A DNA stretch of 64,000 nucleotides from Candidatus Colimorpha pelethequi (GTDB taxonomy: Bacteria > Bacteroidota > Bacteroidia > Bacteroidales > P3), in contig JAGHVO010000026.1 in NCBI GenBank assembly GCA_018064245.1, positions 1 to 64,000 on the forward strand, in the 5' to 3' direction. Made by a program: the position numbers and the translations under genes. How positions within the stretch are numbered: the first letter of the stretch is position 1; each line of letters starts with the position of its first letter. This document shows positions 34,601 through 57,760 of the stretch, one piece after another. Under the pieces are notes generated by a model. The model was not told the DNA's origin and made no database searches. It worked only from the letters and a program-made list of their open reading frames with translations.

Positions 34601-36388
34601 ATGCATCGGGCACGACTTTACAAAGCCATACACATCTGGCGGCTGCGACATCTGTCGCAGCGCACCTATCTGCTCATATTGAGTTTGATAGTGGGTGTAT
34701 TGTCCGGCCTGGCGGCCGTATTGCTCAAGACCATCGTGCACCAAGTCAACCGGTTGCTCCTCAGTCTTGACATAGAGACCTTTGTAGGCGGCAACCTATT
34801 AATGCTCATCTACCCCATCGTAGGCATCCTGCTCACGCTGCTGTTCATCAAGTTTTTCGTAGGCGGCAACATCGGCCACGGAATTCCATCGGTACTGTTT
34901 GCCATCTCGCGAAAAAGAGGCATTCTTCCTCCCAAAAACATGTACAGTTCCCTCATCGCCTCCACGCTCACCGTGGCGTTCGGCGGCAGTGTGGGACTTG
35001 AGGCACCCATCGCCTCCACGGGTAGCGCCATCGGATCCAACATCGGACGCATCTGCCGCCTCTCCACCAAGCATGTAAAGATGCTGTTAGGCTGCGGCGC
35101 CGCAGGCGCCGTAGCAGGCATTTTCAAGGCCCCCATCGCAGGCATCTTCTTCGCCGTGGAGGTCTTCATGTTCGACCTCACCAGCACCACGGCAATCCCG
35201 CTGATGCTCTCCTCCATCTCCGCCTCCACGGTAGCCTACTTCTTGATGGGCACCGACGTGCAGTTCGCCTTCAGCGTCACCGAGGAGTTCAGCCTCATCC
35301 AGATACCCTTCTATGTGATTTTGGGCGTTTTCTGCGCCTGCGCCTCGGTCTATTTCCTACGCGTAACCGACAAAGTAGAGACCTGGTTCTCACGATTCCC
35401 ATCCAAATGGACCCGTCTGATACTCGGCGGCATCATTCTCGGTCTGCTCATCTTCCTCTTCCCACCCCTCTTCGGCGAAGGTTACGGCAGTCTCACCGCC
35501 CTGCTTCGCGGCGACAGCTCGGTGCTTTTCGCGCATAGCATTTTCGAAAAATTCCAAGCGGAAAACTGGGCGTTGCTCATCATGCTCATCGCCCTCATAC
35601 TCCTCAAAGTCGTGGCAACCGCCACCACCATCGGCAGCGGAGGAGCAGGCGGAACCTTCGGACCCTCGCTTATCGTGGGCGGTTTGAGCGGCTATTTTGT
35701 GGCCGTGCTCTGCAACAGTCTGGGCTGTCCCGAACAGTCGTGCGCCAACTTCGCCCTTGTAGGCATGGCGGCGGTGATGTCGGGCGTGATGCACGCCCCC
35801 TTGATGGCCACCTTCCTCATCGCCGAAATCACCGGTGGCTACGAACTGATGGCACCCCTACTCATCGCCGTAGCGGTAACCTATATCTGCGTAAATCCCT
35901 TCGAGAAGCACTCCATCTACGCCCGCAAACTCGCCGTACATGGCGACCTCCTGACCCACGACAAAGACAAATCAGCATGGCACCTGATGGATCTTAGAAA
36001 GATTATCGAGAACGACTTCATACCCGTGCACCAAGGTCGGCCGTTGCGTGACCTCGTGGAAGCCATCAAGCGTTCACACCGCAACATCTTCCCCGTGTTG
36101 GATGCCGAGAACCATTTCGTAGGCGTAATTCATCTCGACGATGTGCGCAAAGTCATCTTCCAGCCCGAACTCTACGACACACAGAAATTGGACGAGTACA
36201 TCTATCCCATCTCCGAAGGCGACATCGTAAACATCAACGACTCGCCCTTCTCCGTGGTGAAGAAGTTCCAGATAGGCAACCGATACAACCTCATCGTGAT
36301 TGACGACGAGCGGAACTACATCGGCGTACTTTCGCGCGCCAACACCTTCTCCGCCTACCGCCAGTTCGTTTACGAAACAACGGAGTAA
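34601..36388 (+). CDS. ClC-family chloride channel/transporter with CBS domains
   Basis: A 595-residue inner-membrane ClC protein. Family signatures: GHGIPSVLFAI (anion pathway), GGSVGLEAPIAS with gating glutamate E134, and GAGGTFGPSLIVGG. Two CBS modules occupy the end (about residues 465-590: FIPVHQGRPLRDLVEAIKRS and INDSPFSVVKKFQIGNRYNL), which usually sense adenosine nucleotides. The glutamate is kept, as in gated channels and proton-coupled exchangers; I cannot tell which this is. The final 17 residues (RANTFSAYRQFVYETTE) are encoded a second time at 48953-49006, where only synonymous changes separate the copies. Confidence 0.9.
   Translation: MHRARLYKAIHIWRLRHLSQRTYLLILSLIVGVLSGLAAVLLKTIVHQVNRLLLSLDIETFVGGNLLMLIYPIVGILLTLLFIKFFVGGNIGHGIPSVLFAISRKRGILPPKNMYSSLIASTLTVAFGGSVGLEAPIASTGSAIGSNIGRICRLSTKHVKMLLGCGAAGAVAGIFKAPIAGIFFAVEVFMFDLTSTTAIPLMLSSISASTVAYFLMGTDVQFAFSVTEEFSLIQIPFYVILGVFCACASVYFLRVTDKVETWFSRFPSKWTRLILGGIILGLLIFLFPPLFGEGYGSLTALLRGDSSVLFAHSIFEKFQAENWALLIMLIALILLKVVATATTIGSGGAGGTFGPSLIVGGLSGYFVAVLCNSLGCPEQSCANFALVGMAAVMSGVMHAPLMATFLIAEITGGYELMAPLLIAVAVTYICVNPFEKHSIYARKLAVHGDLLTHDKDKSAWHLMDLRKIIENDFIPVHQGRPLRDLVEAIKRSHRNIFPVLDAENHFVGVIHLDDVRKVIFQPELYDTQKLDEYIYPISEGDIVNINDSPFSVVKKFQIGNRYNLIVIDDERNYIGVLSRANTFSAYRQFVYETTE
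36336..36384. repeat. Left copy of a 49-bp direct repeat (clc 3' end)
   Basis: Matches 48954-49002 at 48 of 49 positions. This copy is the working end of the clc gene. The two copies bracket the three giant secreted-protein genes. Confidence 0.85.
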
Positions 36389-36444
36389 AGGACTTTAACT
36401 TTGACCTTGACCTATTCTCAATTTACAATCTACAATCTTTTTTT

Positions 36445-39400
36445 ATGTCCATCCACCTCAAGTATCTTTTTGCAATATTCTTGCTAATTCCGTTTGTAGC
36501 CGAGGCGCAAAACAATCCTACCACGATAACCATAGGAGACGGTTCCTACGCCAGCTACGACAGTCCTTTCAATAATTATTATTGGCACAGCTGGAACCAA
36601 GAGATATATCCGGCAAGTGTCATAAGTCAAAGCGGATATATCACCAGCATAGCCTACAACTGTGCAAACGAAGACACCATAACGTTTGACAATTTGAGGA
36701 TATATATGGGAGTGACCAGCAATTCGGAGGTTGAAACGGAATACGACTGGCTCCCGATGGACAGTCTCACGTTAGTTTATTTCGCCAACAATATCCTCAT
36801 GGGAACTCACACAGGTTGGACTTCGTTCACATTGGGCACACCGTTCTATTATGATGCTTCTCAGGGAAATCTAGTGGTCGTGGTGGCAAAAAACACCGCT
36901 TACGGCTATTCTTCCAGCCTCCAATGGTACGCTACCGAACTGCACGACGCCGATGACTATGAAGTCTATGCGACCCTCTTCCGTGAAAACGACGGGGATG
37001 AATACTATGCCGAACATCCTGGCGACGAATGGGGCTACCGCACCAACATCCGAGCCAACATCCGACTTTCCCTCCAACCTTCGATAGACAATATCTGTAT
37101 TGCGCCTTCCATCTCGGTGGAATCAGTCTCAGTCACCTCCGCTGTCGTGCATTGGACTCCAGGCGGAAACGAGAATGCCTGGGAATTGGCTTACGGTCCC
37201 CGCGGCTTCGATAACATCACCGAAGGAACCCATGTTACCATTTCCGACACCACCTACACCGTCACGGGACTGGAGGGCAACAGAGAGTACGACTTCTATA
37301 TGCGATCCCTGTGCGCGGAAGAAAGTCTCAGCCAGTGGAACTATACGAGGTTTCGTACCGAATGCGGCTATATCGACCAGTTCCCATTCGTGGAGGACTT
37401 TGAGGACTACAGCACCTGGAACCATCTTGTACCCGACTGCTGGACCAAGATGGAGGGCAGAGACGACGATATGGGCATTATCGACTGGGGCCACATGAGC
37501 TACGGATGCTTGTCGCTTTCGAGTTGGGAGGACACAGTAGATGTGCTGGCACTCCCACTGATGGACCGCATCGATACGCTGCAAATCTCGTTTTACGCCC
37601 AGATAGATTCAGGAGTGCAACTGCAGGTAGGCGTGATGGAGGGCGACACATTTCATCTTGTGCAGGACGTCACATCTCAAGCCGGCATCGAGGACTATAG
37701 TCTGCAAAGTATAGTCGTAAGTTTTGCCGACTATCACGGCACGTGCAACCGTATCGCCTTCCGTACCCTGTTCGACAACAATTACGAAACAGTGTATATC
37801 GATGATGTCATCGTGGATGGCAACAGCTCGTATATAGGGAGCCATACCTACACCGTCAGTTGGAACGATTTCGACTACAACATGGGCTATTTTAGTGTGT
37901 ATGAAGAGGGGACAGACAGATATGTCACCAATGGCGCCATTGTAGATAGCAACACAACCCTGCGTATGCACATTGGCTGCTATGAGGGAGTGTTCCTCAA
38001 CTCGTTTACTTGCAATGGCACATCTTTGCTGCCTTATCCCATCCATACAGACACAACCATTTATATTCAGGCAGACAGCAATCTGAATTTCTATCTTGAA
38101 TTTGCCGCCTACCTCCCCGACCTGCACGTCACGGCGCTCTCACACTCACCCATGATTGCCGGTCAGACCGCTACCATCAGCTGGACCGTCCGAAACGACG
38201 GACTCGCCCCAACGCCCAACGGCGAGCTGTGGTACGACCGCCTGTGGCTTTCGGTGGAGTGCCGCGTAGCCGCCAACGATGACAATCCCGTCTTCCTGGG
38301 CGAGTTCCCCTGTGTGCGGGTATTGGACACTGGCGATTTCTACACACAGACACAGTCCGTGATTATCCCCGAAGGGTTGAGCGGCAGCTACTACCTCTTT
38401 GCCATCACCGACGCCTACGACGCGCATACCATACTTTGGGGAGAAGACACGGCCGTGGTGCCTTATCGTCCCGACCCCTATCTGGGAGCCTACGCAGCCC
38501 ACTGCATAGGAGCGAACTGCGGCGATGGTGCCGGAAACCGCATCTTGGAGATGTCGGAGATAAGCAACGGAAGCAGCTATCACGACAACTTCTTCTACGA
38601 CACCGCAAGCGTGGGCGTACCCCCTGCGGCAGATTTCCAGATTGCGTCGGTCATAGCGCCAAGCGACTGCTACTCGGGCACAGAGCAGCAAGTCCTGGCA
38701 ACCATCCAAAACCTCGGACAATGCACCAGCGGCGAACGCATCGATGCACTGTTCCTCTCGCCCCACGACACGTTTGACAGCCTCGCAGTGATGGTAGGCA
38801 TGGCGAAGCGCACCTATTGGGCGCCCTATGTGCCACTGGGACCCTACGACCACCCCGACACCATCATCATCAGCGGAAACGACACCCTGGAGTACCACAT
38901 CATGAGCGACCCTGTCTATCCTCCGTTGGCTGTAGGCGAGTCCTGCCTCGACACACTCTATGCGACTATCCCCTATGAGATGTTCGGCACCCATTATTTC
39001 TATGTATGGACCAACTACGACGGCCGCACCAACGAGTATGCCAACGTAAGCAACAATGTGTTCCGTTCCGACTCGGTCCATATCCAACTCACGCCGCCAG
39101 CCGATCTGGTGCCAGCCGATCTCTCATTCCCCACCGCCGTCAGCACAGGCGAAGCCCTGCCCTATTCCTTCACCATCGTCAACCAAGGCGCAGGAGAGCC
39201 CAACATCATCGATTGGATCAACAACGTGTTCCTCACCCGTTCCCCTGCGGAACTTGAAGACGTGATGATTATCGGCACCCATCCTTATAGCGGCCTCACC
39301 TACGGAACGTTTGGGCCCGAGGCGTCCCATACCTTTAGAGACTCAGTGGTTTTCAGCAGCAGCAACAACATCCCCGCCGGAGAGTACTATCTCTATGTAG

Positions 39401-42342
39401 ATGTGGATGCCCACGACGATGTTTTTGAATACCTCTACGAAGACAACAACCTGATGCAGTACACCCATACGCTCACCGTGATGAATCCCGACCTGCAGAT
39501 CGGGCAAGTCTTGATAGACGACACGCTGATGGCAGGCAGCACTTCGACCGCCGTGGCATTCCAGCTCCGCAATACAGGAGCAGGCCGCGTGACCAAAAGC
39601 GGTGTCCGCCATAGCATCTACCTCACTTCCGACTACAACGGTGCAAACATCGTGAGCAGCTGTGATCTGATTGAGAACGTCCAAATTAACGGCAACGATT
39701 CGGTGATGAGATATCACTATATGCCCATCAACCCCAATCTCGCCGATGGGCGATATTACCTATGGGTGATGGCAGACAGCTACGACCGAGTGGCAGAGTC
39801 CGACAACGAGAACAACCGCTCTTCGCGGCAGTCGGTATATGTTCGCCACCAACAGCTGTCCGACCTCGATGTCACTTCGTTCACTATGCCCGACGAGGTC
39901 CAGGCAGGCTTGCCCGCCCAAATTTCGTTTGACATCCAAAACATTGGCGAGGTGGATTATTCCGCAACCGATTGTCCTATATCTGTATATGCCCTCAACG
40001 GCGAAGACACCATCCTGTGTCCTTGCTTGTCGCAGTCTGCGCCATCAGGCACCGAGGTGGCTATCCGTATCGGCAACACACTCCACTTCGAGCAACAAGT
40101 CCTTGTCGCCCCCAATATCAGTTCGGGTTCGCACACCTTCTTGCTGATAGTCGATAAAGACAGCACCTTTGCCGAGCCCTCCAAGGCAAACAATCTTCGC
40201 TCTGCCACCTCCGCCGTGACCTCCTACGACTTTGATTTGGCCGTCACGAATGTACAGACTGCCACTTCGGCACAGCGAGGCGACACAATCACCGTGTCGT
40301 GGACGGTCACCAATGTAGGCAGCGTGCCCTCCTCCACCGTTCCTATGCATGTACTGGTGGAAGATCGCGACTGCCTCTTAAGCGAGTTGGGACACTATGA
40401 CGAAGAAGGTGTCACGACTTATTTCGACCCGTTGTGGAGCGATTGGGTCTATCTGGCAGAAGGCACATCCACGATAGGTTCGCCCCTCTGCACCGTGGAG
40501 CATCATGTAGCCCTCAATCCCAATGGCAGCTACACCGTCAGCCAGACCTGCGTGCTGCCCCTGAACCACTACGGAAACCTCGACATCTTGGTGCGCACCG
40601 ATGCTTCGGGCACGGCATACGACAACAATCTTTCCAACAACTCCGCCACTTCGCCCATCACCGTACAGCTGGGCGAAGTGCCCGACTTGCAGATTGTCTC
40701 TTTGGACTTTCCTGCCGAAATAGAAAGCAACCAGTCCTACCGTCTGGCATATACCATCCAAAACGTTGGCTCCGCCAGCACCCCAGAAGACCAGTCGTGG
40801 ATTGACGCCTTCTATCTGACCGCCGACAACACCGTGGACGACAACACCTTTATAGGCTATACCCGTTTTATGGGAGTTCTGCCACCCAACGCCACCTACA
40901 GCGACACCATTGATGTTTTTGTAGGCGATATTCCCGTAGGGGACTATAGTCTGATAGGCATTACCGACAAAAACAATGAGCTTTTTGAACATGATGGAGA
41001 GTCCAACAACCAATCTTCACGCAACGTGACCGTGCGGCTGCCGCTTCCTTGCGACCTAAAGCCGCTCACACCCACCTTCCCCGCCAATGTCTATGCCGGC
41101 GGACCCGTCACCATCAACTGGACCGTGAGCAACATCGGACGCAACGTCGCTTTGGGACAAGTGAAGGATGTGGTCTATCTCTCAACCGACAACCGCTGGA
41201 GCAATGATGATATCATGCTCGGACATCTCTTCGATGCTATCGCCGTCGAAGCGGGAAGCTCCACAACACGCACCCTGAGCACCTATCTTTCCGGGGTACC
41301 CATTGGCGACTACTACGTCATTGTGAAATGCAACACCCTCAATGCACTCAATGAGATGTCCTACACCAACAACGAGGCACTCTCGCCCACCAAGCTCCAT
41401 GTCGATTGCCGACTTTTGGCTATCGGCGAGCAAGTCGAAGACTCCCTGTTTTCCTCGGGCGAGTTGTGCTACAGAATGGACGTCTCGGCGGACGATGCGG
41501 GGCAGACACTTGCCATCCGTCTCGAAGGCGATAGTGCCCAGTTCTGGGACGGTCTTTTTGTCAGTTACGGTCAAATGCCTTCGGCGATGACGTTCGACCA
41601 TGTCTCCGCCATTCCCTACAGCAACCTACAGGAACTCCTGATTCCGAGTCTCCAGCAAGGCACCTACTTCATCATGGCGCGCCCCTCCACGCAACAATCC
41701 CCCACACTACAATCCACATTCTACAATCTACAATCCAACATTGTCAATTTCGAAATATTATCCGTCAACGCTTCCTCCGGTTCCAATTCGGGCTACACCA
41801 CCGTACAGGTCAGGGGTGCCAAATTCGAGCCAGTCATGGATTTTTGGCTTGTGAAAGACAGTGTGCGCATTCCCGCCGACCAGTTCATCTTCCACAATGC
41901 CTCCGATGTAGATGTCACCTTCAACCTCATCGATAAGCCCACAGGCATCTACGATCTTTGGGCAGAGCTGCCCGACGGCACCACCGCCGTCAAGACCCAG
42001 ACATTCTCGGTCAACAGTGGCTTGCCCGCGGGTCTCACTGGCCGTTTCGACGTCCAAGGCCGCGGAAAGATTCGCAAAAACCAAGTCATGCCCATCACCA
42101 TCTACTATGCCAACGATGGCGACAGCGATGTGGAGGTCTCCAGCCTTCAGGTAGATTGCATAGGTGGCGAAGTTTCGCTCCAAGCCAACGGGCCTTACAG
42201 CAGTTCCATCATATTCCCAGCCTTCGACGGCGCAGATGCCCGCACACTCCGCCCAGGCCAGACCGGCGCCAAGGTGATCTTTTTCCGAGCCACCAGCAAC
42301 AAACCCTCCTTAACCCTCTCCTCCGTCAACTACACCGAATAG
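36445..42342 (+). CDS. Giant secreted protein with FN3 and eight CARDB repeats
   Basis: A 1965-residue exported protein. The signal peptide is MSIHLKYLFAIFLLIPFVAEAQ. A fibronectin type III domain lies at about residues 215-305 (SVESVSVTSAVVHWTPGGN). Eight CARDB repeats follow between about 555 and 1650, each opening with a motif like DLHVTALSHSPMIAGQTATI, DLQIGQVLIDDTLMAGSTST or DLAVTNVQTATSAQRGDTIT. CARDB modules are Ig-like adhesion folds. The C terminus has no T9SS sorting domain, which is odd for a protein this size in this group. The RHS gene follows after 21 bases. Around 41690-41745 the coding sequence consists of intergenic-type repeat DNA (encoding TLQSTFYNLQSN). Confidence 0.85.
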   Translation: MSIHLKYLFAIFLLIPFVAEAQNNPTTITIGDGSYASYDSPFNNYYWHSWNQEIYPASVISQSGYITSIAYNCANEDTITFDNLRIYMGVTSNSEVETEYDWLPMDSLTLVYFANNILMGTHTGWTSFTLGTPFYYDASQGNLVVVVAKNTAYGYSSSLQWYATELHDADDYEVYATLFRENDGDEYYAEHPGDEWGYRTNIRANIRLSLQPSIDNICIAPSISVESVSVTSAVVHWTPGGNENAWELAYGPRGFDNITEGTHVTISDTTYTVTGLEGNREYDFYMRSLCAEESLSQWNYTRFRTECGYIDQFPFVEDFEDYSTWNHLVPDCWTKMEGRDDDMGIIDWGHMSYGCLSLSSWEDTVDVLALPLMDRIDTLQISFYAQIDSGVQLQVGVMEGDTFHLVQDVTSQAGIEDYSLQSIVVSFADYHGTCNRIAFRTLFDNNYETVYIDDVIVDGNSSYIGSHTYTVSWNDFDYNMGYFSVYEEGTDRYVTNGAIVDSNTTLRMHIGCYEGVFLNSFTCNGTSLLPYPIHTDTTIYIQADSNLNFYLEFAAYLPDLHVTALSHSPMIAGQTATISWTVRNDGLAPTPNGELWYDRLWLSVECRVAANDDNPVFLGEFPCVRVLDTGDFYTQTQSVIIPEGLSGSYYLFAITDAYDAHTILWGEDTAVVPYRPDPYLGAYAAHCIGANCGDGAGNRILEMSEISNGSSYHDNFFYDTASVGVPPAADFQIASVIAPSDCYSGTEQQVLATIQNLGQCTSGERIDALFLSPHDTFDSLAVMVGMAKRTYWAPYVPLGPYDHPDTIIISGNDTLEYHIMSDPVYPPLAVGESCLDTLYATIPYEMFGTHYFYVWTNYDGRTNEYANVSNNVFRSDSVHIQLTPPADLVPADLSFPTAVSTGEALPYSFTIVNQGAGEPNIIDWINNVFLTRSPAELEDVMIIGTHPYSGLTYGTFGPEASHTFRDSVVFSSSNNIPAGEYYLYVDVDAHDDVFEYLYEDNNLMQYTHTLTVMNPDLQIGQVLIDDTLMAGSTSTAVAFQLRNTGAGRVTKSGVRHSIYLTSDYNGANIVSSCDLIENVQINGNDSVMRYHYMPINPNLADGRYYLWVMADSYDRVAESDNENNRSSRQSVYVRHQQLSDLDVTSFTMPDEVQAGLPAQISFDIQNIGEVDYSATDCPISVYALNGEDTILCPCLSQSAPSGTEVAIRIGNTLHFEQQVLVAPNISSGSHTFLLIVDKDSTFAEPSKANNLRSATSAVTSYDFDLAVTNVQTATSAQRGDTITVSWTVTNVGSVPSSTVPMHVLVEDRDCLLSELGHYDEEGVTTYFDPLWSDWVYLAEGTSTIGSPLCTVEHHVALNPNGSYTVSQTCVLPLNHYGNLDILVRTDASGTAYDNNLSNNSATSPITVQLGEVPDLQIVSLDFPAEIESNQSYRLAYTIQNVGSASTPEDQSWIDAFYLTADNTVDDNTFIGYTRFMGVLPPNATYSDTIDVFVGDIPVGDYSLIGITDKNNELFEHDGESNNQSSRNVTVRLPLPCDLKPLTPTFPANVYAGGPVTINWTVSNIGRNVALGQVKDVVYLSTDNRWSNDDIMLGHLFDAIAVEAGSSTTRTLSTYLSGVPIGDYYVIVKCNTLNALNEMSYTNNEALSPTKLHVDCRLLAIGEQVEDSLFSSGELCYRMDVSADDAGQTLAIRLEGDSAQFWDGLFVSYGQMPSAMTFDHVSAIPYSNLQELLIPSLQQGTYFIMARPSTQQSPTLQSTFYNLQSNIVNFEILSVNASSGSNSGYTTVQVRGAKFEPVMDFWLVKDSVRIPADQFIFHNASDVDVTFNLIDKPTGIYDLWAELPDGTTAVKTQTFSVNSGLPAGLTGRFDVQGRGKIRKNQVMPITIYYANDGDSDVEVSSLQVDCIGGEVSLQANGPYSSSIIFPAFDGADARTLRPGQTGAKVIFFRATSNKPSLTLSSVNYTE

Positions 42343-42363
42343 CCACAAAGCCCCCCTATTGCC

Positions 42364-45300
42364 ATGAAATCCATTCTCCATTCTCAATTCTCAATTCATA
42401 AATATATAGTTCTGTCCACCCTGATGGTCGTTCTGGGAACATCGTTGGAAGCACAAAACGCCACCCAGCCCAAGATTTCCTGTCCCAACGGGCTTATGGT
42501 GGGAGCCAGCAACGGTTCACTGTTCTACCACCGTGCCGACTACCACGCCTCAGCGCCTGGTCCCGACATCGATGTGTCGTTCTACTACAACAGCATCACG
42601 CCCAAGAAAGATTATGGCTACGGTCGGGGGTGGAACCTCGGAGTTCAGGCACGCTACGAGGAAGACTCGCTCGGCGTGACCATCATCCAAGGAAACGGGC
42701 GCCAAGATCATTTCGACCGATTCGGAAGCCACTACGAGCCCAGCAAGCCCGGGGTGTTCTTCGACTTGGTCAAGGTAGATAGCGGCTACGTGCTCACTAC
42801 GCCACAAGGCACCCAATACAAGTTCTTCGACACCACACATTGCTGCGTAACCCAAATAGCCGACAGGAACGGCAACAAGCTGATTTTTACCTATAGTTCA
42901 GGACTGCTGAGCACGCTAAGCGACAATGTAGGCCATAGCGTCACATTTGTGTGGACGGACGGCCACCTCACCTCCTTCAAGCCCTTCCACACACAGCACG
43001 ATTGGCAGTTCCGCTACGACAACAACAGCCGGCTAAGCCAGGTGACCAACCCCATGGGACAGACCGAGCACTACGCCTACTACGACAACCATCGGCTCAA
43101 GACCGTCACGAACGCCAAGGGAGAAATCACCAAGATAAGCTACAACTCGCTACGGGCGGTGAGCCGCGTGGAAACAGCCGTGACAGACAAGTCGATACGC
43201 TACGACTGGGAGAGCCGTCGCACCACCGTGGTTGACCTCAGCAAAAACGACGGCACGAAACAGTACAGTTCGTATGTCTGGGACGAAGAAGGTCGCCTTG
43301 TCGCCCAGCGAGGCAACTGCTGCGGACACGCCACAGAGTATTGCTACGATGGCGAAAACAATGTTGTCATGACTCGCGACGCCTACGGCTACGAGACGCA
43401 CCTCACCTACGACGCCAAGGGCAACTGTCTGAGCATTACCGACGCTGCGGGAAACACACAGTACTATACCTACGGGCCCTTTGCCAACAAGACCTCCTAC
43501 ACCGACCAGCTGGGTCGCCAATTCACCTACAGCTACGACCAGCATGGCAACCTCACCGCCATCCACGGTCCCCTCAACTATACGGTAACATTCGTCAACA
43601 ACGCCTACGGACTACCCACCTCAGTCACAGGTCCGCTAACCAACAGCACCACACACTACACCTACGACACCTACGGCAACATCGCCACGGCAACCGACGC
43701 TTTGGGCCACACCTACACCTACACCCACAACGCTTACGGGAGCCCCACAATGGTCACCAATCCGATAGGAGGCACCACGCAGTTCCACTACGACGACATG
43801 AACCGCCTCATAGCCACCACCGACGCCATGGGCGTTACAACCAACTACCAGTACGACGAGACGGGACGTATCAGCGGACACAAGCAAGGAAACGCACCTT
43901 GGGACGCCATCACCTACGACGCCGAGGGCAATCTCAGCGCCTACCGAGACGCAGCTCTGCACGAGACCGCCTATAACTACAACCAGCAAGGCAACGCGAT
44001 AAGCGTCACAGATGCCCTGGGAGGCACGACACGGCTCTTCTACGATGGAAACAACCACCTTGAGATGTCCGTCTCGCCTACGGGCGACTCCACGTACTTT
44101 TTCTACGACGAGAGAGGCAATCTCAGCAACACAGTCTATCCTTCGGGACGAGAGGTCACGATACAGTACGACAGCCTTGACCGCAAGACACGCGTGTGGG
44201 ACCAACTGGGCGCCGTGGCTGAATATCATTACGATGCCGTGGGCAACCTCGTCCGTACCGAAGACGGCGAGGGCAATTTTGTGACCTATACCTACGATGC
44301 GCTCAACAGGATAGAGAGCAGAAACAGCAACGGCAGCGAGGAACACTTCACCTACGATTTGGCGGGCAAGATGCTCACCCACACAGACGCACTGAACCAT
44401 ACCACCAGCTACGCCTACGATCTGGCGGGCAACCTAACCACCACGACAGACGCCCTGGGCAATACAACCACCTACACCTATGACGCCATGGGCAACCTCG
44501 CCTCGGTCACCGATGCGAAAAACCAAACCACGAGCTACGAGTACAACCCGAACGGGAAGCGTGCCAAGGTCACCTTCCCCAACGGCAAGAACCGCAGGTA
44601 CTACTACAACGACCGCGGACTGCTGGTGCGCGAAAAAGACGAGGAGGGACGCTGGATAGACTACGCCTACTACGACGACAATAAGATTCAGTCGCGCAGC
44701 TGCAACGGCGAGAGCGAGACCTACGTATATGACGCCAACGGACTTGTGACCAGCGCCTCCAACAACGGTCACACCGTAACCTACACCTACGATGCCTCGG
44801 GCCGACTGCACTCCGAGCGTCATAGCGATTCCTCTATACAATCCGCACTCGTGCTTCACGGGTACGACAGCCACGCCAACAGCCACACCCTCACCTACCC
44901 ATCGGGCGCTGTGGTCGTGGAACACTACGACCTGCGAGGCCGCCTCGCCTCGATTGAGGAGAACGGCACCAATGTGGCGTCCTACACCTACAACCGCAAC
45001 AACCAACCCACCGAAGCCCTATACGCCAACAATGTGGCTTCCCGCTACCACTACAACACCCACGGGCGAATGGACAGCCTGAGCACGGGCACCAGTATCC
45101 TGGGCATGGCATACCACTACGACTACGGAGACAACCTGCTTGCTACCGAGAACACGGGAACCCGCAGCGAGCGTTTCGCATACGACAACCAGAACCGTCT
45201 CACCCACTACCAGCAAGGAGTGATGGGGCAGAACCTGACAATAGACAGTCCCGTGGCAGAGAGCCACTACACCCTCGACGCCCTCGGCAACCGCACCACA

Positions 45301-46554
45301 CTTAGCAGCAATACAGGCACGCACACCTACGCCACCAACAGCAGCAACGGCTACACCGCCGTGGATGGGCGCATGCTGCAGTATGACGATTGCGGCAACC
45401 TCATCTCCGACGGCGTACACACCTATCAGTACAACTGGAACAACCTCCTGGTGTCGGTCGATAACGGCGCCACGGCGACCTACAGCTACGACGCTTTCCA
45501 CCGCCGTGTGGCGAAAAGTACGGCAGCAGGCAGGACCCACTACCTGTATGACGGTAACAAAATCCTCGAGGAGCGCAACGATTCCAATCAGCTGGCGGCT
45601 TCGTACATCTATGGCGCCTTGGGAGCCGACGATGTGGTGCGGATGCGGCGCAACAGCCAAAACTATTACTTCCACACCGACCGATTACTCTCCGTGAGGG
45701 CTGTCACCAACGGCTCGGGCAATGTGGTGGAACGCTACGACTACGACCCCTTCGGCAGACCTGCCATCTATGACGCAGCGGAGACCACGCTGACGCAATC
45801 GGCTTTGGCGAACAGCCGCCTCTTCACGGGAAGAGAGTACGACAGCGAGAGCGGACTCTACCACTACAGGCTGCGCACGATGAACCCCGAGCTGGGACGA
45901 TTCCAACAGTACGACCCACTCTACTATGCCGACTGCATGAACCTCTACGCCTATGTAGGCAACCGACCCACCTACTATGTGGATCCCACGGGAGCGCTGA
46001 GCGAACAAGCCCGAGGCGACATCTCGGCAGGCCTGGACATGTTCGGAACGGCGCACGACCTAGCCTCGGGCGTGCTGGTCAACAGTATGGGGAACACGAT
46101 AAATGCGGGCGAGATGACGCTAAGTCAGACGATGGGCGTCTATAACGAGATATCGCGCATCGAGTCGGCAAGCACCGCGGTAGGAGTGGCACTCGCTCCC
46201 GTGTCGATCATCCTCGCCACCGAGTCGGCAATGGACAACTACAGCAGCGGCAACATGACGGGCTACTACCTTGACTGCGCAAGTGCCTACACCAGTATGA
46301 CGGGACTCTTCGGCGCAGGCTTGAGCAGCCTGACCACGATGGGCTACGGAGCAGCATACGCCACCGTAGGCGGCATTCTGTCAAGCGTGGCAGCCGTGGT
46401 AGGAGCCGGACTAGGAAGCTATAGCGCGATGTCGTGGGTGATGGAGAACACGAGCCTGGGCAAGAACTACCTAGGGAAGCTCTACGAAATCCCCTTCAAG
46501 ATACAAGACTGGTGGAACAGCCGCGGCGACAAAGACTCAAAACCCTGCAACTAA
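42364..46554 (+). CDS. Secreted RHS/YD-repeat protein with RHS core domain
   Basis: A 1396-residue exported protein. The signal peptide covers about residues 1-31, ending TSLEAQ. About 1100 residues of YD repeats follow (for example YDALNRIESRNSNGSEEHFT, YDAMGNLASVTDAKNQTTS), building the hollow RHS shell. The core-associated motif is ESGLYHYRLRTMNPELGRFQ near residue 1163, ending YVDPTG near 1210, where such shells normally cut themselves. The 185-residue tail after it is variable and rich in glycine and alanine, with hydrophobic runs, and matches no toxin I know. No immunity gene follows. The start of the signal peptide is encoded by intergenic-type repeat DNA (CATTCTCAATTCTCAATTCA). Confidence 0.87.
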   Translation: MKSILHSQFSIHKYIVLSTLMVVLGTSLEAQNATQPKISCPNGLMVGASNGSLFYHRADYHASAPGPDIDVSFYYNSITPKKDYGYGRGWNLGVQARYEEDSLGVTIIQGNGRQDHFDRFGSHYEPSKPGVFFDLVKVDSGYVLTTPQGTQYKFFDTTHCCVTQIADRNGNKLIFTYSSGLLSTLSDNVGHSVTFVWTDGHLTSFKPFHTQHDWQFRYDNNSRLSQVTNPMGQTEHYAYYDNHRLKTVTNAKGEITKISYNSLRAVSRVETAVTDKSIRYDWESRRTTVVDLSKNDGTKQYSSYVWDEEGRLVAQRGNCCGHATEYCYDGENNVVMTRDAYGYETHLTYDAKGNCLSITDAAGNTQYYTYGPFANKTSYTDQLGRQFTYSYDQHGNLTAIHGPLNYTVTFVNNAYGLPTSVTGPLTNSTTHYTYDTYGNIATATDALGHTYTYTHNAYGSPTMVTNPIGGTTQFHYDDMNRLIATTDAMGVTTNYQYDETGRISGHKQGNAPWDAITYDAEGNLSAYRDAALHETAYNYNQQGNAISVTDALGGTTRLFYDGNNHLEMSVSPTGDSTYFFYDERGNLSNTVYPSGREVTIQYDSLDRKTRVWDQLGAVAEYHYDAVGNLVRTEDGEGNFVTYTYDALNRIESRNSNGSEEHFTYDLAGKMLTHTDALNHTTSYAYDLAGNLTTTTDALGNTTTYTYDAMGNLASVTDAKNQTTSYEYNPNGKRAKVTFPNGKNRRYYYNDRGLLVREKDEEGRWIDYAYYDDNKIQSRSCNGESETYVYDANGLVTSASNNGHTVTYTYDASGRLHSERHSDSSIQSALVLHGYDSHANSHTLTYPSGAVVVEHYDLRGRLASIEENGTNVASYTYNRNNQPTEALYANNVASRYHYNTHGRMDSLSTGTSILGMAYHYDYGDNLLATENTGTRSERFAYDNQNRLTHYQQGVMGQNLTIDSPVAESHYTLDALGNRTTLSSNTGTHTYATNSSNGYTAVDGRMLQYDDCGNLISDGVHTYQYNWNNLLVSVDNGATATYSYDAFHRRVAKSTAAGRTHYLYDGNKILEERNDSNQLAASYIYGALGADDVVRMRRNSQNYYFHTDRLLSVRAVTNGSGNVVERYDYDPFGRPAIYDAAETTLTQSALANSRLFTGREYDSESGLYHYRLRTMNPELGRFQQYDPLYYADCMNLYAYVGNRPTYYVDPTGALSEQARGDISAGLDMFGTAHDLASGVLVNSMGNTINAGEMTLSQTMGVYNEISRIESASTAVGVALAPVSIILATESAMDNYSSGNMTGYYLDCASAYTSMTGLFGAGLSSLTTMGYGAAYATVGGILSSVAAVVGAGLGSYSAMSWVMENTSLGKNYLGKLYEIPFKIQDWWNSRGDKDSKPCN

Positions 46555-46632
46555 CCCCTCTATATTCCATAGGAATCCTAGATTCCCTAGAATCCCTAGA
46601 TTATTAATAGCAATCAATTATCCTCAACAACA

Positions 46633-48807
46633 ATGACCTCTCTCAAACTCATATTCCTCTCATGCATGGCAGCCTTGACGCTCCTTCCTTCCACACTCTA
46701 TGCCCAGACCAATAGCACTTGTGCGCAGGGTGCGCAGGAGGAGGACAAGGACAAGGCGAAAGTCGAGAACATGCTCGACTCCGTCTCTTTCGACGCCGAG
46801 GAGTCGGCGGACCCCAACAAGATTACCGGGCTGCCGGGCTACAACAGGGACCGGCGCGACAGCTCCAACTGGGTGGCAGCCACTCAGCGACTCGCCTATA
46901 CCATCTATTTCGAGAACGACCCCGTGCAGGCTACCGCTGCGGCGCAGAAGGTGCAGATCAGACACCGATTGCACCAGAAGGTAAACTACGCCTCGGTACT
47001 CTTGGGCACTTTCGGCTTTGGCGACAAGAGTTTCACCATTGAGGGCAACCGGACGAGCTACCAGCAACGACTCGACTTGCGCGCAAGCATGGGCATCTAT
47101 GTCGATGTGGTGGCAGGTCTCGACGTGGTCAACAATGAGGTGTTCTGGACCTTCCAGACCATCGATCCCGCCACGGGGCTGCCTCCGCTGGGCGTGGGCG
47201 ATGGATTCCTGCCCGTGAACGACTCGCTCCATTCGGGCGAGGGCTTCGTAAGCTTCTCGGTGGCTCCCAAGTCGGGGGACTGCAGCTCGGGGGAGGTCAT
47301 CACAGCCGACGCATCCATCGTTTTCGACCGCAATGCGGCGATTCCCACCAACGTGTGGCACAACACCATAGACGCCACGGCGCCCAGCAGCACCATAGCC
47401 GTGATTCCCGCCGTGGGAGGCGACTCCATCCGTTTCTCGGGGACAGATGACGCCACCGGGTGCGGCGTGGCGCGCTACAAGCTCTACCTCTCAGTCAACG
47501 AAGGGGCATACCAACTCTATGGCGTCTATCCTGAGGGAGCAGCGGCATTTGTCGCCTCGGTATCCGACGAAGAACACCGCTACATCTCCCTAGCGGAAGA
47601 CCATGTGGGCAACCTAGAGCGCAAAGACACCGCAGACGCCCATTCGGGGAACGCCGTGATGAACGTGGATTTGGCAACCTATCCCGCCTTGGCAGGCAGC
47701 GTGAACGGAGCAGGAAGTGTAGCGCGAGGCAGCATGGTCACGGTGACCGCCATCCCCGCTACAGGCTATCATTTCGTGCGCTGGACCGCAGGAGGCGTCA
47801 CACGCTCGACCGAAAGCTCCTACACATTCACTGTTGACGAGAACATCTCGCTTACCGCCTATTTCGAATCCAACGAATATCCGCTCACCATCCAGCAAGA
47901 CGAAGGCCTTGAAGTATCGGTACGCAACGCCGATTGGGTGGCACTCGCCTCCAATCAGACCATCCGTCATTTCGACACACTCTTTGTCAGCTATCAAGTT
48001 GCCGCCTGCCATCAGTTTGCCGCCCTCACCGTGAACGGCAACCCGTTGTCAAGCGACGGGAGACACATCGTTAACGGTCCCGTCACGGTGAACGCCACCT
48101 CCACCTTGGCTCCGCCCGAGGTCACCGCTTTTGACGCATTCATCTGCGAAGGCGAGGAATATTCCTTCGGAGGCGAAATCTTCGCCGAGAGTGGCACCTA
48201 CAACGATACGCTCCAGAGCGTAACAGGGTGCGACAGCGTTGCGCAACTGCATCTCGTGGTAAACCCCGCCACCATGGGCGGCGATACCATTACGGCGTGC
48301 GACAACTACGAGTGGAACGAAGTGGAATACGCCGAATCGGGCATCTATACCTTCAACTCCACCAATGCGGCGGGATGCGACAGCGTGGCGACACTCAGCC
48401 TCACCATCAACTACAGCACCGCCTGCGAGCTTTACGACACCGTTTCGGGCAGCTACGAGTGGGACGGAGAGACCTACACAGAAAGCGGCACCTACACCCA
48501 CACCTACCAGACCCTAGCAGGATGCGACAGCGTTGTCACGCTCCACTTAGTGGTCAACGGAATCGGCATAGCCGAGGTTGACCTTGAAGGACTCTCCATC
48601 TATCCCAACCCCACGCAAAGCAAAATCCAGATCACCCTCGAGGGCGCCGAACTGCTACAGGTAGAAGTGCTTGACCTCGTAGGACGCGTGATGCAGACCA
48701 CCACAACGCCGTGGATAGACCTCACGCCCTACAAAGAAGGCAGCTACCTCCTAAGAATCAGCACCACCCAAGGAACAGCGATAAAGAAAGTGGTCAAGAT
48801 TAGTTGA
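46633..48807 (+). CDS. Secreted adhesin-like protein with T9SS type A sorting domain
   Basis: A 724-residue exported protein: signal peptide MTSLKLIFLSCMAALTLLPSTLYAQ; a domain with RLAYTIYFENDPVQATAAAQ near residues 78-97, typical of Bacteroidota repeat proteins; an InlB-B-like module (YHFVRWTAGGVTRSTESSYT, about 380-400); three copies of a CDSVATLSLTIN type repeat (about 530-645); and a T9SS C-terminal sorting domain (ISIYPNPTQSKIQI ... VVKIS, about 655-724). The sorting domain sends it through type IX secretion to the cell surface. Of the three neighbouring giants it alone carries this signal, so it may anchor or accompany the other two. Confidence 0.85.
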   Translation: MTSLKLIFLSCMAALTLLPSTLYAQTNSTCAQGAQEEDKDKAKVENMLDSVSFDAEESADPNKITGLPGYNRDRRDSSNWVAATQRLAYTIYFENDPVQATAAAQKVQIRHRLHQKVNYASVLLGTFGFGDKSFTIEGNRTSYQQRLDLRASMGIYVDVVAGLDVVNNEVFWTFQTIDPATGLPPLGVGDGFLPVNDSLHSGEGFVSFSVAPKSGDCSSGEVITADASIVFDRNAAIPTNVWHNTIDATAPSSTIAVIPAVGGDSIRFSGTDDATGCGVARYKLYLSVNEGAYQLYGVYPEGAAAFVASVSDEEHRYISLAEDHVGNLERKDTADAHSGNAVMNVDLATYPALAGSVNGAGSVARGSMVTVTAIPATGYHFVRWTAGGVTRSTESSYTFTVDENISLTAYFESNEYPLTIQQDEGLEVSVRNADWVALASNQTIRHFDTLFVSYQVAACHQFAALTVNGNPLSSDGRHIVNGPVTVNATSTLAPPEVTAFDAFICEGEEYSFGGEIFAESGTYNDTLQSVTGCDSVAQLHLVVNPATMGGDTITACDNYEWNEVEYAESGIYTFNSTNAAGCDSVATLSLTINYSTACELYDTVSGSYEWDGETYTESGTYTHTYQTLAGCDSVVTLHLVVNGIGIAEVDLEGLSIYPNPTQSKIQITLEGAELLQVEVLDLVGRVMQTTTTPWIDLTPYKEGSYLLRISTTQGTAIKKVVKIS

Positions 48808-48953
48808 TTTGTTGGATTGAAGGAACGTGACTAGTGATTAGTGACCCGAAATGGTTCTGATAGATTGGGGAATTAATTAGTTTAGAGTTTCCTTTCAATA
48901 TTAGTATTGCTGAAGTATAGCGGCGGAAACTCCCAAAAGAGAGCAAAGGATTC

Positions 48954-49002
48954 GCGCCAACACCTTCTCCGCCTACCGACAGTTCGTTTACGAAACAACG
49001 GA
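48954..49002. repeat. Right copy of the 49-bp direct repeat (second clc 3' end)
   Basis: It lies in the 503-base non-coding gap 48808-49310. Read in frame it encodes RANTFSAYRQFVYETTE and a stop (TGA instead of TAA), the same residues as the clc end. The two differences before the stop (CGC to CGA, GAG to GAA) are synonymous. Nothing upstream of it resembles the rest of clc. The rest of the gap holds a 35-bp repeat copy and the LRR promoter, and no gene. Confidence 0.85.
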
Positions 49003-49054
49003 ATGAGCGAATTGAGATTTGCGAACCATTTGTGGCAATTTGTGTTTTGTTTTT

Positions 49055-49089
49055 TTTCAACGCAAATTATCGTGAATGAGTCCCAAATT
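49055..49089. repeat. Left copy of a 35-bp direct repeat flanking the LRR cassette
   Basis: TTTCAACGCAAATTATCGTG plus 15 further bases, matching 51452-51486 at 34 of 35 positions. The copies flank the LRR gene, the 65-residue gene and their terminator, about 2.4 kb in all. Confidence 0.8.
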
Positions 49090-49138
49090 TTTTCGTAAAC
49101 AATGTGTTTTGTTAAAAGATTCAAATTTGGTGGGTCCA

Positions 49139-49170
49139 TTTGGTTGATAGAGAATTCTTTTTTACTTTTG
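49139..49170 (+). promoter_or_regulatory. Strong Bacteroidota promoter for the LRR gene
   Basis: TTTG at 49139-49142, 20 bases, then TACTTTTG at 49163-49170: a full match to the consensus. The leader to the start codon would be about 135 bases, long enough for leader control, but I see no known riboswitch in it. Confidence 0.7.
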
Positions 49171-49310
49171 CACTTTTATTACCCTCTCCGGAATATTTTC
49201 GGGGTTGGGCAATTTGGTAAATATCAATTTGTTATAAATATTTATAAAAGCATCAACTTGTCGCCAAAACATTACAAACCCGCTACGACATCAATTAAAA
49301 TTTTAAAATA

Positions 49311-51080
49311 ATGAAAAAAATCTTATTACTTTTAACCTTGAGCCTCTGCTCGCTTGGAGCATGGGCACAAGACTTCTACAACGGAGACCATACATTAGGT
49401 TTTACCATTACAGGAACCAACGAGGTCTCTGTAGCCGCAGGAACTACAGCACCTACAGGCACCCTTGTAATTCCCTCAACCGTCGAAAATGCTGGCACTA
49501 CCTATACGGTGACCAGCCTCGCTTATAATGCTTTCTATGGTTGTAGCAGCCTCACGAGTGTGACCATTCCCAATTCGGTGAATAGCATCGAGGGTTATGC
49601 TTTCTATAATTGCAGCGACCTCACGAGCGTGACCATCCCCAATTCGGTGACCAGCATCGGAGCTAGTGCTTTCAATAGTTGCAGTAGCCTCACGAACGTG
49701 ACCATTCCCAATTCGGTAACCTCTATGGGAACTAATGTTTTCACTTATTGCAGAAGCCTCGCGAGCGTGACAATATCCAATTTAATAAACTATATTCCAG
49801 AATACACCTTCTATGATTGCCGTAATCTCACGAACATCACCATTCCCAATTCGGTAACCACCATCTACAAAAATGCTTTCGAAGGTTGCACTAGCCTCAC
49901 AAGCGTCACCATCCCCAATTCCGTGCGTACTATCGGAGGTAGTGCTTTCTATCGCTGTAGCGGTCTCACAAGCGTCACCATCGGCAATTCGGTAATGTTA
50001 ATCCAAATTTCTGCTTTCGAGAATTGCAGTGGTCTCACAAGCGTTACCATCGGCAATTCGGTGCGCTCTATCACGGGTACTCCTTTCATAAATTGCAGCA
50101 ATTTGAAAACCGTCTATAACTTTTCCAGTTTTTTATCCATCGGAACAACTTTGTATGGTTTAAATGCCACTCGAGTGATTGTTCCCACCAAATCCGGTAC
50201 CGGGACAAATACACTCTTCCAAATCCCCGAAACCTATACCTTTGTGGATAATGATAATTCTACTTCTGCAACGGAAATCCCACGTTCTACTATTCCAAAT
50301 ATTGCCAACCTCATCTACAAAGATGGCGGTTCCTGGTTGGCAAAAGAGATTGTTTTGACCGATGATTCGAATGCTTTCGTGGCTCCTGTTCCTTTCACCG
50401 CCGAAACTGTAACTTACACCCGCGAGTTCACCAACAGCAACCGCAGCACACTCTATCTGCCCTTTGCCGTTGCTGTGGCTTCCATTCCCGAGGATCTTGA
50501 AATCTATGATTTTTCCGGATTCAATGGAACCAGCATCTCCTTCGCCGAACATACGGGAGGCATCGCCGCCTACACCCCCTACCTCGTGGGCTACGACATC
50601 AGCAGCAAGGACGGCAACCCGACCAAATGCACCTTCAACCTGACCAATGTCGCCTTCCCCGTAACTCCCGCAGCTTCGACCAATGCTATTACAAATAACG
50701 GAATGACCTTCCAAGGCACCACACAGCGCACCTGTATGACCAGCTCGAACTACGGCTACTCCAACGGTTACTTCGTGCAGAGCGGCAACGGCGGCGACCA
50801 CACGGGCCACGCCCACGTCAATCCTTTCCGCTGCTATTTCACCTATTCAGCCAGCGGTCCTATGGGAATTCCTCCCACGCTCGGCATCGACCTCACCAAC
50901 AACGGCCTCACAGGCATCGAGACTCCCGACAAGCCCGTCCTTCAGAACAACATCCGCTACAGCGACGATGTGTTTGACACCATGGGTCGCCTGGTGCGCA
51001 AGCACGCCAAGGACCTTGAAGGACTGCCCAGAGGCATCTATATCTGGAAAGGCAAGAAAGTGCTGCATTTCAATGATTAG
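49311..51080 (+). CDS. Secreted BspA-like leucine-rich repeat protein
   Basis: A 589-residue exported protein with signal peptide MKKILLLLTLSLCSLGAWAQ. Residues about 45-290 hold roughly ten LRR_5 (BspA-type) repeats of about 23 residues, with consensus AF.GCSSLTSVTIPNSVTSIG; these mediate binding to host or microbial surfaces in oral and gut Bacteroidales. A beta-rich domain follows. The end (YSDDVFDTMGRLVRKHAKDL then LPRGIYIWKGKKVLHFND) is the short C-terminal signal common in T9SS cargo of Bacteroidales. It has its own strong promoter, and a terminator sits after the next gene. Confidence 0.87.
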   Translation: MKKILLLLTLSLCSLGAWAQDFYNGDHTLGFTITGTNEVSVAAGTTAPTGTLVIPSTVENAGTTYTVTSLAYNAFYGCSSLTSVTIPNSVNSIEGYAFYNCSDLTSVTIPNSVTSIGASAFNSCSSLTNVTIPNSVTSMGTNVFTYCRSLASVTISNLINYIPEYTFYDCRNLTNITIPNSVTTIYKNAFEGCTSLTSVTIPNSVRTIGGSAFYRCSGLTSVTIGNSVMLIQISAFENCSGLTSVTIGNSVRSITGTPFINCSNLKTVYNFSSFLSIGTTLYGLNATRVIVPTKSGTGTNTLFQIPETYTFVDNDNSTSATEIPRSTIPNIANLIYKDGGSWLAKEIVLTDDSNAFVAPVPFTAETVTYTREFTNSNRSTLYLPFAVAVASIPEDLEIYDFSGFNGTSISFAEHTGGIAAYTPYLVGYDISSKDGNPTKCTFNLTNVAFPVTPAASTNAITNNGMTFQGTTQRTCMTSSNYGYSNGYFVQSGNGGDHTGHAHVNPFRCYFTYSASGPMGIPPTLGIDLTNNGLTGIETPDKPVLQNNIRYSDDVFDTMGRLVRKHAKDLEGLPRGIYIWKGKKVLHFND

Positions 51081-51125
51081 AGAACAGCGACCAGACATCT
51101 TAAATAATTCTCAAAATTTAATAGC

Positions 51126-51323
51126 ATGGAAGACAAGAAACAATATATCAAGCCCACCGTCAAATGTGTGGTATTCAAGGCAGAGCTCGGATTTGCAATG
51201 AGCCAAGGATTCAGCAGTTATAATTCGTCTAAAGAAGATTACGATTTTGAAGAGGATGCCCACAATGTTAATGGCAACCATTTCGGCGGTTTCTTCACCA
51301 ACAACACCGACGACTGGGACTAG
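51126..51323 (+). CDS. 65-residue small protein downstream of the LRR gene
   Basis: A 65-residue acidic peptide beginning MEDKKQYIKPTVKCVVFKAE and ending in FGGFFTNNTDDWD. Bacteroidales encode many peptides of this size with a KKxYxKPxVxVV head and a variable acidic tail; their role is not established. There is no ordinary signal peptide. The ATG lies 45 bases after the LRR stop, and a strong terminator lies 26 bases after its own stop, so it is the last gene of that transcript. A role as a peptide precursor or LRR partner is inference from position only. Confidence 0.65.
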   Translation: MEDKKQYIKPTVKCVVFKAELGFAMSQGFSSYNSSKEDYDFEEDAHNVNGNHFGGFFTNNTDDWD

Positions 51324-51348
51324 TGTAGCAAAAAGACTTATGTTTCAA

Positions 51349-56278: not shown

Positions 56279-57760
56279 ATGAGAGGAAAAGGTTCGCAAG
56301 TAGCTACGGTGAACTTCAAATCACTGTTTTTCATGTTGTGGTGCATCGCCATTTCGGCAGGTTTTGTACAAGGTCAGGATGTTTCCACATCAAACCTGAT
56401 GCGCCATATTCAGAATCTCTCCGCATCGGAATTCGGAGGCAGGCTGGCAGGTACACAAGGATACATGGATGCCGCAAAATATGTAGCCGAAGAGTTGCAG
56501 AGCTACGGCATCAAGCCCTACGATGAAAGCTGGGGCCAACTGTTTGAAGTGGAATGCAACGAGGTGGAAAATTGCACTTTCAACACATACGTAAACGACA
56601 ATGACGAGCGCACCGTTTATGTGCTGGGACGCGACTTCGTTTGCGGCAGCATGACCGGTCGTGGCTACGCCGACGCCAACGTGGTCTTTTGCGGCTACGG
56701 CATCGACGCACCCGCCTTCAACGAATATGCCGACGTGGACACCCGAGGCAAGATTGTAATGGTGGTTACGGGCGTTCCTGATTTCCTGCCCACTTCCATC
56801 ACGCAACCGTACGCCACGCTGCGCGACAAAGCACGCACAGCCAAAGCACATGGCGCCGTGGCATTGGTAGTTGTGAACCGTGCGGAGAACTGTCGTCGCA
56901 ACGAAGTGCAAGGCATGAACTACTGCGGAGAAGGTCCACATCTGGCCACTTTCCCCATCGTGCAACCCACAATGGAATGTGGAGAGTTGTTGATGGAAGG
57001 CGAGAAGAGCACCATTGAAAAGACCATGGCCACGATAGACGAGACGCTCAAACCCCAATCGTTTCACCTGTTGAAAAAATTCGAGATTGACGTCAACGCA
57101 CGCTATCAACCGCGCGCACTTACCGCCAACATTGTAGGATTCTTGAAAGGCTGGGACAAGAAAATGGACCAAGAACTCATCGTGGTGGGAGCCAACCTTG
57201 ACCACATCGGCATGCAAGGCGAGACCTGCCTGTTTCCTGGATCGGACGACAACGCCTCCGGAGTAGCCGCCCTGCTGGAGACCGCCCGACTGCTCACCAA
57301 ATATGAGAACCGTCCTCGCAGAAGCGTGGTGTTTGTAGTGTTCTCAGGCAGCGAAATACAGCACCTTGGCTCACAGATTTTCCTCTCCAATTTTGAAGAC
57401 ATCAAAAAAATTGAGGCTTATGTAGGCGCCGAGCGCATTGGCAACGGCGACAGCATCGTAGTAACGGGCAACGGAAGATATCCCGCATTGTGGGAAATCG
57501 CGCACAAAAACGATTCCACCATCGGAAAACTCGCCACGGGAGTGAAGACCATGCCCAAAGGCGACGCCGCACCTTTCGCCCAAGTAGGCATTCCTTCGAT
57601 AGTGTTCTGCACCTTGAACGGAAACCGCTACGCACATGTTCCCAGCGACAAGCCCGAGAACATCAACCGCGAGATAATCACCCAAAGCGCCCAGCTGATG
57701 TTCTTGACAATCAAAGAACTTACCGATGGCGACTATAGAGGCAGAAGCAAGAGAAGATGA
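56279..57760 (+). CDS. M28-fold exported protein, probably without peptidase activity
   Basis: A 493-residue exported protein with a hydrophobic N-terminal segment (about residues 14-31), a PA-type insert (about 130-250) and an M28 zinc aminopeptidase fold (about 285-480). The fold is clear from GSDDNASGVAALLETARLL, but the metal site is altered: GAHxDH is GANLDH (N306), the usual catalytic EE pair is S358-E359 in SGSEIQHLGS, and the conserved LDMIG aspartate is E385 in GAERIG. The aspartates 323-324 and H453 remain. I infer loss of peptidase activity. It lies 78 bases upstream of gldF. The ATG at 56279 has a strong promoter upstream. Confidence 0.8.
   Translation: MRGKGSQVATVNFKSLFFMLWCIAISAGFVQGQDVSTSNLMRHIQNLSASEFGGRLAGTQGYMDAAKYVAEELQSYGIKPYDESWGQLFEVECNEVENCTFNTYVNDNDERTVYVLGRDFVCGSMTGRGYADANVVFCGYGIDAPAFNEYADVDTRGKIVMVVTGVPDFLPTSITQPYATLRDKARTAKAHGAVALVVVNRAENCRRNEVQGMNYCGEGPHLATFPIVQPTMECGELLMEGEKSTIEKTMATIDETLKPQSFHLLKKFEIDVNARYQPRALTANIVGFLKGWDKKMDQELIVVGANLDHIGMQGETCLFPGSDDNASGVAALLETARLLTKYENRPRRSVVFVVFSGSEIQHLGSQIFLSNFEDIKKIEAYVGAERIGNGDSIVVTGNGRYPALWEIAHKNDSTIGKLATGVKTMPKGDAAPFAQVGIPSIVFCTLNGNRYAHVPSDKPENINREIITQSAQLMFLTIKELTDGDYRGRSKRR

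Follow-up and report, generated by a model that had tools for sequence, protein, structure and literature searches.

Repeated clc gene ends around a surface-protein module in a Bacteroidales genome suggest insertion by recombination without an integrase

How does a genome come to carry the last codons of one core gene twice, once in place and once 12,565 nucleotides (nt) behind the gene, with a set of giant secreted-protein genes between the two? This question is raised by clc, which encodes a voltage-gated chloride channel, in a 64,000-nt stretch of Candidatus Colimorpha pelethequi contig JAGHVO010000026.1 (hereafter the window; contig C21 of a 2.38-Mb genome in 80 contigs). We propose, with a probability of roughly 0.6, that the module lying between the two clc ends is foreign DNA that was taken in without an integrase, through homologous recombination at one flank and non-homologous joining at the other. 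That this was an insertion at a gene end is, in kind, well supported, and ordinary recombination is more likely to have caused it than a hidden integrase.

A preliminary description of this DNA reported that the last 49 bases of clc recur at 48954-49002. The recurrence is real, but the true copy (Table 1) extends one base further to the left and four further to the right. Only the last 17 codons and the stop of clc are duplicated, and similarity ends there; copy 2 starts abruptly inside the gene, and no further match was found leftward. The distal copy encodes RANTFSAYRQFVYETTE plus TGA. As the preliminary description had stated, its three differences from the gene (CGC/CGA, GAG/GAA and TAA/TGA) are all silent, an outcome that three random substitutions in the 54-nt block reached in simulation with a probability of 0.010. 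With 40 of its 47 candidate places scored, the genome as a whole yielded two matches to the clc end itself, of which copy 2 aligned at 98% over 50 nt (E 2e-18), and no third copy was found among the places scored. Four other matches cover only the AT-rich stretch 3′ of the clc stop. The window's clc end had no match among the viral contigs or plasmids searched.

Copies of this type are also present behind clc in other genomes. All clc ends were compared with all downstream DNA of 118 clc loci, of which 114 came from genomes of the genus, three from named contigs (Bacteroidales from ruminant guts) and one from the window; this DNA amounts to 1.50 Mb, with a median of 10.9 kb per locus and less than 1 kb in four loci. 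Three strong copies were found (in the window, G012 and G090), along with a weak one in G061. In G012, a 40-nt copy lies at +234 and differs from the gene by its stop (TAG against TAA), one silent change and one Thr/Ala change. The copy in G090 is 68 nt long and lies at +898, with HEPN and nucleotidyltransferase genes between the two ends; here the copies differ by one silent and one Ser/Thr change, which is less clear-cut as an allelic difference. The weak case (locus L178) consists of 23 of 24 nt of a G020-like end, stop included, at +1497..1520 behind a RhuM-like gene. A further set of 21 clc loci comprised 20 loci of other families, taken from 19 genomes and including one with 5 downstream bases, and one locus from the genus. 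It contained one strong case, G054 (L252), which belongs to another family. There, a second copy of the last 312 bp of clc lies about 3.9 kb downstream; it is 99% identical to the first, from which two silent changes and one Met/Leu change set it apart. LysR- and PTPS-family genes lie between the copies, and beyond the distal copy are a HigB/HTH pair, an AAA_14 protein and a DNA methylase paired with a Tsp45I-type restriction enzyme. The 1.5-kb downstream flanks of 19 loci of the family showed no similarity to the downstream DNA of G054. Thus, an insert flanked by a direct duplication is found in the window and in three other genomes, and in both the window and G012 further cargo lies beyond copy 2. 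Weak matches were dropped, namely one of 21 nt on the minus strand in L162, one of 17 nt adjoining the stop in L149 and two of 12-13 nt in the further loci L246 and L248.

The sequences of the copies provide some indication of their origin. Among the 118 clc ends, only the window's protein ends in YETTE. This ending is shared by P0001, which is 97% identical; P0002 (80%) ends in ISESSEE, and the next three proteins read lack YETTE. The sharing of this ending assigns copy 2, and with it both window alleles, to one close lineage, that of the window itself. The earlier suggestion that the second copy once ended a working clc allele is supported. In G090, copy 2 matches the clc end of G125 at 68 of 68 positions and the next 32 bases match too, although the clc bodies of these two genomes are only 75% identical. 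A 68/68 identity at the end occurs in none of 6903 clc gene pairs, the maximum being 67, and G090 with G125 is the only case in which the equivalent junction (a clc end with its following bases) was found in another genome. The G125 clc end was also searched for in 120 genomes, with at most seven candidate places scored in each, and had matches in 87. Among the places scored, those away from clc genes were just the copies in G090 and G012, two unrelated frames and a clc piece in G132; the G125 end is too diverged to detect the window's second copy. Matches on G019 C93 and G005 C37 were dropped since they lie inside long unrelated reading frames.

As a control, we took 1125 open reading frames of at least 200 codons from the same loci and counted as a copy any same-strand intergenic match downstream of at least 30 nt and 88% identity. 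Copies of a frame's own 3′ end were found for four of the 1125, namely three clc genes and one tandem repeat. This corresponds to 3/115 for clc against 1/1010 for other frames (Fisher p 0.004; p 0.001 without the tandem array). Within 1 kb the counts are 2/111 and 0/937 (p 0.011; including the tandem repeat raises this to p 0.031). The tandem array is a 34-nt repeat at the end of another gene in L149, and two 3′-end matches in L202 were left uncounted as they belong to a pair of duplicated genes. Copies from the middle of genes were never intergenic among the control frames. Repetition at one gene is what sets clc apart. Copies of gene starts were seen in L168, L169, L037 and L207 (44-76 nt, at least 92% identity); those four frames were inspected by protein start, and the copies are possibly a mirror scar or leader duplications.

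The region behind clc is an insertion hotspot with highly variable content between fixed core genes, and the next core gene may follow after as little as 13 bp or as much as 19.9 kb. The next core gene is an M28 peptidase gene in 27 of the 118 loci (gap 105 bp to 19.9 kb) and a Wzy-type gene in 47 (gap 13 bp to 15.5 kb); neither anchor lies within the fetched stretch in the other 44. Upstream of clc, an OmpA-family gene on the opposite strand is present in all but one (L132) of a subset of 34 loci, that is, in 33; most remaining loci begin within clc itself and do not reveal this side. Since this neighbour is constant, the variable side of clc is its 3′ side. Where M28 is the anchor, it lies no more than 700 bp from clc in 17 of 27 loci, compared with 19,891 bp in the window, which bears out the part of the preliminary description that placed inserted DNA at the clc 3′ end. 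Its view that the two copies bracket this DNA was too narrow: judged by the gene order of relatives, the extra DNA occupies 36389 to 56278 (19.9 kb), so that copy 2 falls within this DNA, short of the right border. Both clc and its former neighbour, the M28 operon, are retained in the window; a duplication is present and no large loss is evident, whereas classical homology-facilitated illegitimate recombination would delete a similar amount of recipient DNA. Pfam was run on 58 of the 83 reading frames from the larger gaps (14 frames of L144 and 11 others were left out), and the families include AbiH, GmrSD, Vsr, RhuM, WYL, PDDEXK transposase-like, TonB-receptor and peptidase families. No integrase was found among the 25 commonest of the 54 families in these 58 frames.

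The cargo between the two clc ends in the window is a whole module, because the same three genes (CARDB, RHS and type IX secretion tail) occur directly next to one another and in the same order at loci in G006:C6, G083:C114 and G122:C17. These loci are unrelated, and no clc is present within the stretches fetched. Relatives of the RHS gene at E 1e-40 were found in at least 3 of 119 other genomes, a lower bound, as at most five candidates per genome were scored for RHS and three for CARDB. The RHS matches in the three genomes end at residue 1213-1218 of 1396, and the last ~180 amino acids are not common to them. A C-terminal tip that is not shared resembles polymorphic RHS proteins. Around the module in G006 and G083 no gene-end copy was recognised, the direct repeats there being only intragenic or AATTGAGA-like runs.

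Table 1. Coordinates of the clc gene, its repeated end and the genes downstream of it in the window
Feature	Position	Strand	Remarks
clc, voltage-gated chloride channel with CBS domain, 595 amino acids, intact	34601..36388	+	Pfam PF00654 E 6e-78; CBS E 7e-10; 97% identical relative P0001
clc end, proximal copy, part of clc	36335..36388	+	last 54 nt of the gene
Cargo gene 1, CARDB/fn3-like protein, 1965 amino acids	36445..42342	+	Pfam CARDB E 4e-43; fn3 match below the family cut-off
Cargo gene 2, RHS-repeat protein, 1396 amino acids	42364..46554	+	Pfam RHS_repeat E 2e-88
Cargo gene 3, 724 amino acids, type IX secretion sorting tail	46633..48807	+	Pfam Por_Secre_tail, DUF7619, Flg_new_2
clc end, distal copy, intergenic, own stop TGA	48953..49006	+	51/54 identical to 36335-36388
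Second cargo, BspA-type leucine-rich-repeat protein	49311..51080	+	Pfam LRR_5 E 3e-62
Open frame of 257 amino acids	51247-52020		without Pfam family; odd composition, may not be a gene
Oxidoreductase, 1078 amino acids	52216..55452	-	Pfam DAO, Pyr_redox_2, Fer2_4
M28 peptidase, first gene of the M28-ABC operon	56279..57760	+	right border of the extra DNA; directly 3′ of clc in relatives

Based on these observations, the following sequence of events can be proposed. DNA from a close relative, beginning within the final bases of that relative's clc and running into the downstream module, would enter the cell. Its far end would be joined end to end either with its own clc stub, giving a circle, or with the clc already present in the cell. 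A single RecA crossover within the short clc end would then set the module behind a clc that is still complete, and the last codons and stop of the other allele would be pushed to the far side of the module. We infer both the circle and the crossover. In this scheme each copy would resemble a working gene end because each was one. One homologous side and one non-homologous join would together explain the stop-ended copies, their scattered left edges, the lack of a tyrosine recombinase or resolvase on the contig, the full module and the allele-like differences. Counted from the last base of the stop, the copies reach 54, 40, 68 and 312 nt into clc, a scatter expected of random joins. That short stubs dominate may reflect survival, as long direct repeats would, by our reasoning, delete the cargo.

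Several points weigh against this proposal. The shared stretches of 54 bp in the window and 40 bp in G012 are short for a RecA crossover, and one-sided events are rare in E. coli according to excerpts of one study (PMC3240628). Copies of 5′ ends are no rarer than those of 3′ ends, with 4 of 1125 frames having an intergenic same-strand copy and 10 of 1125 a copy of any kind, so that short terminus copies arise at other genes too. The loci were fetched for clc, and 13 kb of downstream DNA was available for 182 of 1010 control frames compared with 57 of 115 clc genes. In G090 the proximal end is also unusually near that of G125 (65/68), so either copy could be the native one, and the pattern would also fit a distal piece derived from the donor. 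The preliminary description had looked to relatives in which clc runs directly into the sequence after 49007, but none of the other 117 clc loci does so, whether by DNA or by downstream proteins, and these loci include no genome with an empty or alternative site for the window itself. Finally, all genomes are draft assemblies.

Among the alternatives, an integrative element that attaches site-specifically at the clc 3′ end, its integrase lost or acting in trans (e.g. Xer), would account for direct repeats at both ends, for the element's copy restoring the gene and for one gene being hit in four genomes. An attachment core should have the same edge at every insertion, whereas the edges here differ in each case. 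Moreover, one spacer between copies is just 233 bp, and no common motif was seen by eye at the three cargo-end junctions compared. The earlier statement that no integrase accompanies the insert also held up: the genome has three matches to the tyrosine recombinase family (PF00589), none of them on the window's contig, and no match anywhere to the resolvase family (PF00239), nor was an integrase among the 25 commonest families of the 58 hotspot frames run. Given these searches and the differing repeat edges, such an element is unlikely and was set aside. Rather doubtful, too, is a stacking in which two chromosomes recombined unequally and brought together two alternative cargos that had each stood directly behind clc. 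Here, the end of one cargo would have been joined non-homologously to the other allele's clc end, and the exchange further to the right would have been ordinary homologous recombination. The resemblance of the distal G090 clc end and its following 32 bases to G125, and the cargo beyond copy 2 in the window and G012, fit this route, and for the effector arrays of Vibrio a comparable series of displacements is proposed in passages of Kirchberger et al. (PMC5361080). Nevertheless, it predicts the same junction as insertion by a single one-sided event, so that the present data hardly separate the two, and a donor chromosome for the window's second cargo was not found among the other 117 loci.

That copy 2 arose by duplicating the gene's end locally, or is left over from a second clc gene, seems quite improbable. 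In favour of this, the YETTE ending stands on both copies and is absent from the other ends of the 118-locus set and, among the five proteins read, from all except the 97% relative, and short 5′-end copies occur at other genes. A decaying duplicate, however, is hard to reconcile with the purely silent changes in the window, with stop codons that differ in two of the four strong cases, or with a G090 copy that is closer to another species than to its own gene. The paralogue remnant was set aside within the genus since 116 of the 117 genus genomes having clc carry a single clc match at E 1e-100; the full paralogue in relatives that the preliminary description had named as evidence against insertion is thus not borne out within the genus. 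An assembly error that fused two strains is very improbable, even though these are draft assemblies of uncultured cells: false joins usually occur at long shared sequence, none of which is seen by eye at the cargo/clc join, and the pattern recurs in four separate assemblies.

One-sided insertion of the kind we favour has laboratory and natural parallels. In excerpts from Amarir-Bouhram 2011, a polymerase chain reaction product for a duplicated stretch of the homologous gene end was obtained in 56 of 60 E. coli clones, and 14 sequenced clones had duplications of 109-950 bp, which were explained by an end-joined circle and a single crossover (PMC3240628). The clc cases share with that product a homologous gene terminus, one non-homologous join, a partial duplication flanking the insert and no integrase. 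In contrast to that laboratory plasmid, they are natural, their duplications measure 40-312 bp, the alleles differ and the same gene is hit repeatedly. Insertion with long target duplication, a term of Nobusato 2000 as cited in passages of PMC1643837 and PMC3031569, likewise involves long, variable direct duplications flanking an insert, and in G054 a Tsp45I-type system lies beyond the distal copy; those passages, however, concern restriction genes, first in Helicobacter pylori, while the window has a surface/RHS module and a duplicated gene end with its stop. For the type VI effector arrays of Vibrio cholerae, Kirchberger et al. propose homology-facilitated illegitimate recombination (PMC5361080, in part). 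There, too, upstream homology anchors the incoming module and the old gene end is moved downstream. The Vibrio anchor belongs to the secretion cluster and immunity genes are left over, whereas at clc the anchor is an unrelated core gene of which only the last codons are left. Most hotspots lack an integrase according to parts of Oliveira 2017 (PMC5635113), where, similar to clc, a variable region lies between core genes and recombination at the flanks is proposed. The model given there is a double homologous exchange, from which we would not expect a gene-end scar.

Two features are new, as far as the literature searched extends: the scars recur behind the same core gene in two families, and they are allelic. 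Among the matches listed, no title names a clc hotspot, and no paper was found that combines Bacteroidales, a chloride channel, a genomic island and a hotspot. DNA entry into integrase-free hotspots has been argued mostly from statistics, and an allelic gene-end scar would be a physical trace of single events that reveals one homologous side, one non-homologous side and the length of the homologous stub. Every core gene can be screened for a scar of this kind on its downstream side, and one can then count how much of the turnover at hotspots is owed to one-sided recombination. The present case would also be one of an RHS and surface-protein module that travels whole without mobility genes of its own. 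More speculatively, and with a lower probability, the clc 3′ end could be an integrase-free docking site across Bacteroidales families at which defence, toxin-antitoxin and surface modules are swapped; each capture, made via the last few dozen bases of this core gene, might then add one more allelic gene end to a fossil ladder. The observation in the preliminary description is confirmed, and its interpretation is partly supported and largely right.

The remaining genes in the extra DNA lie beyond copy 2 (Table 1). None of the other 117 loci has the oxidoreductase behind clc, and copies of about 90% identity adjoin other genes in the three relatives inspected. Two further observations concern clc itself in other genomes. 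At G134:C34:21976-23758, residues 2-401 are in one frame and the end lies ~500 bp further on, so that the gene looks interrupted, and the clc piece on G132 C70 is a second one in that genome. In the window, a dispersed intergenic repeat (49052-49089 and 51449-51486) flanks the leucine-rich-repeat gene; its two copies are 95% identical to each other and 82-86% identical to two places on G000:C10.

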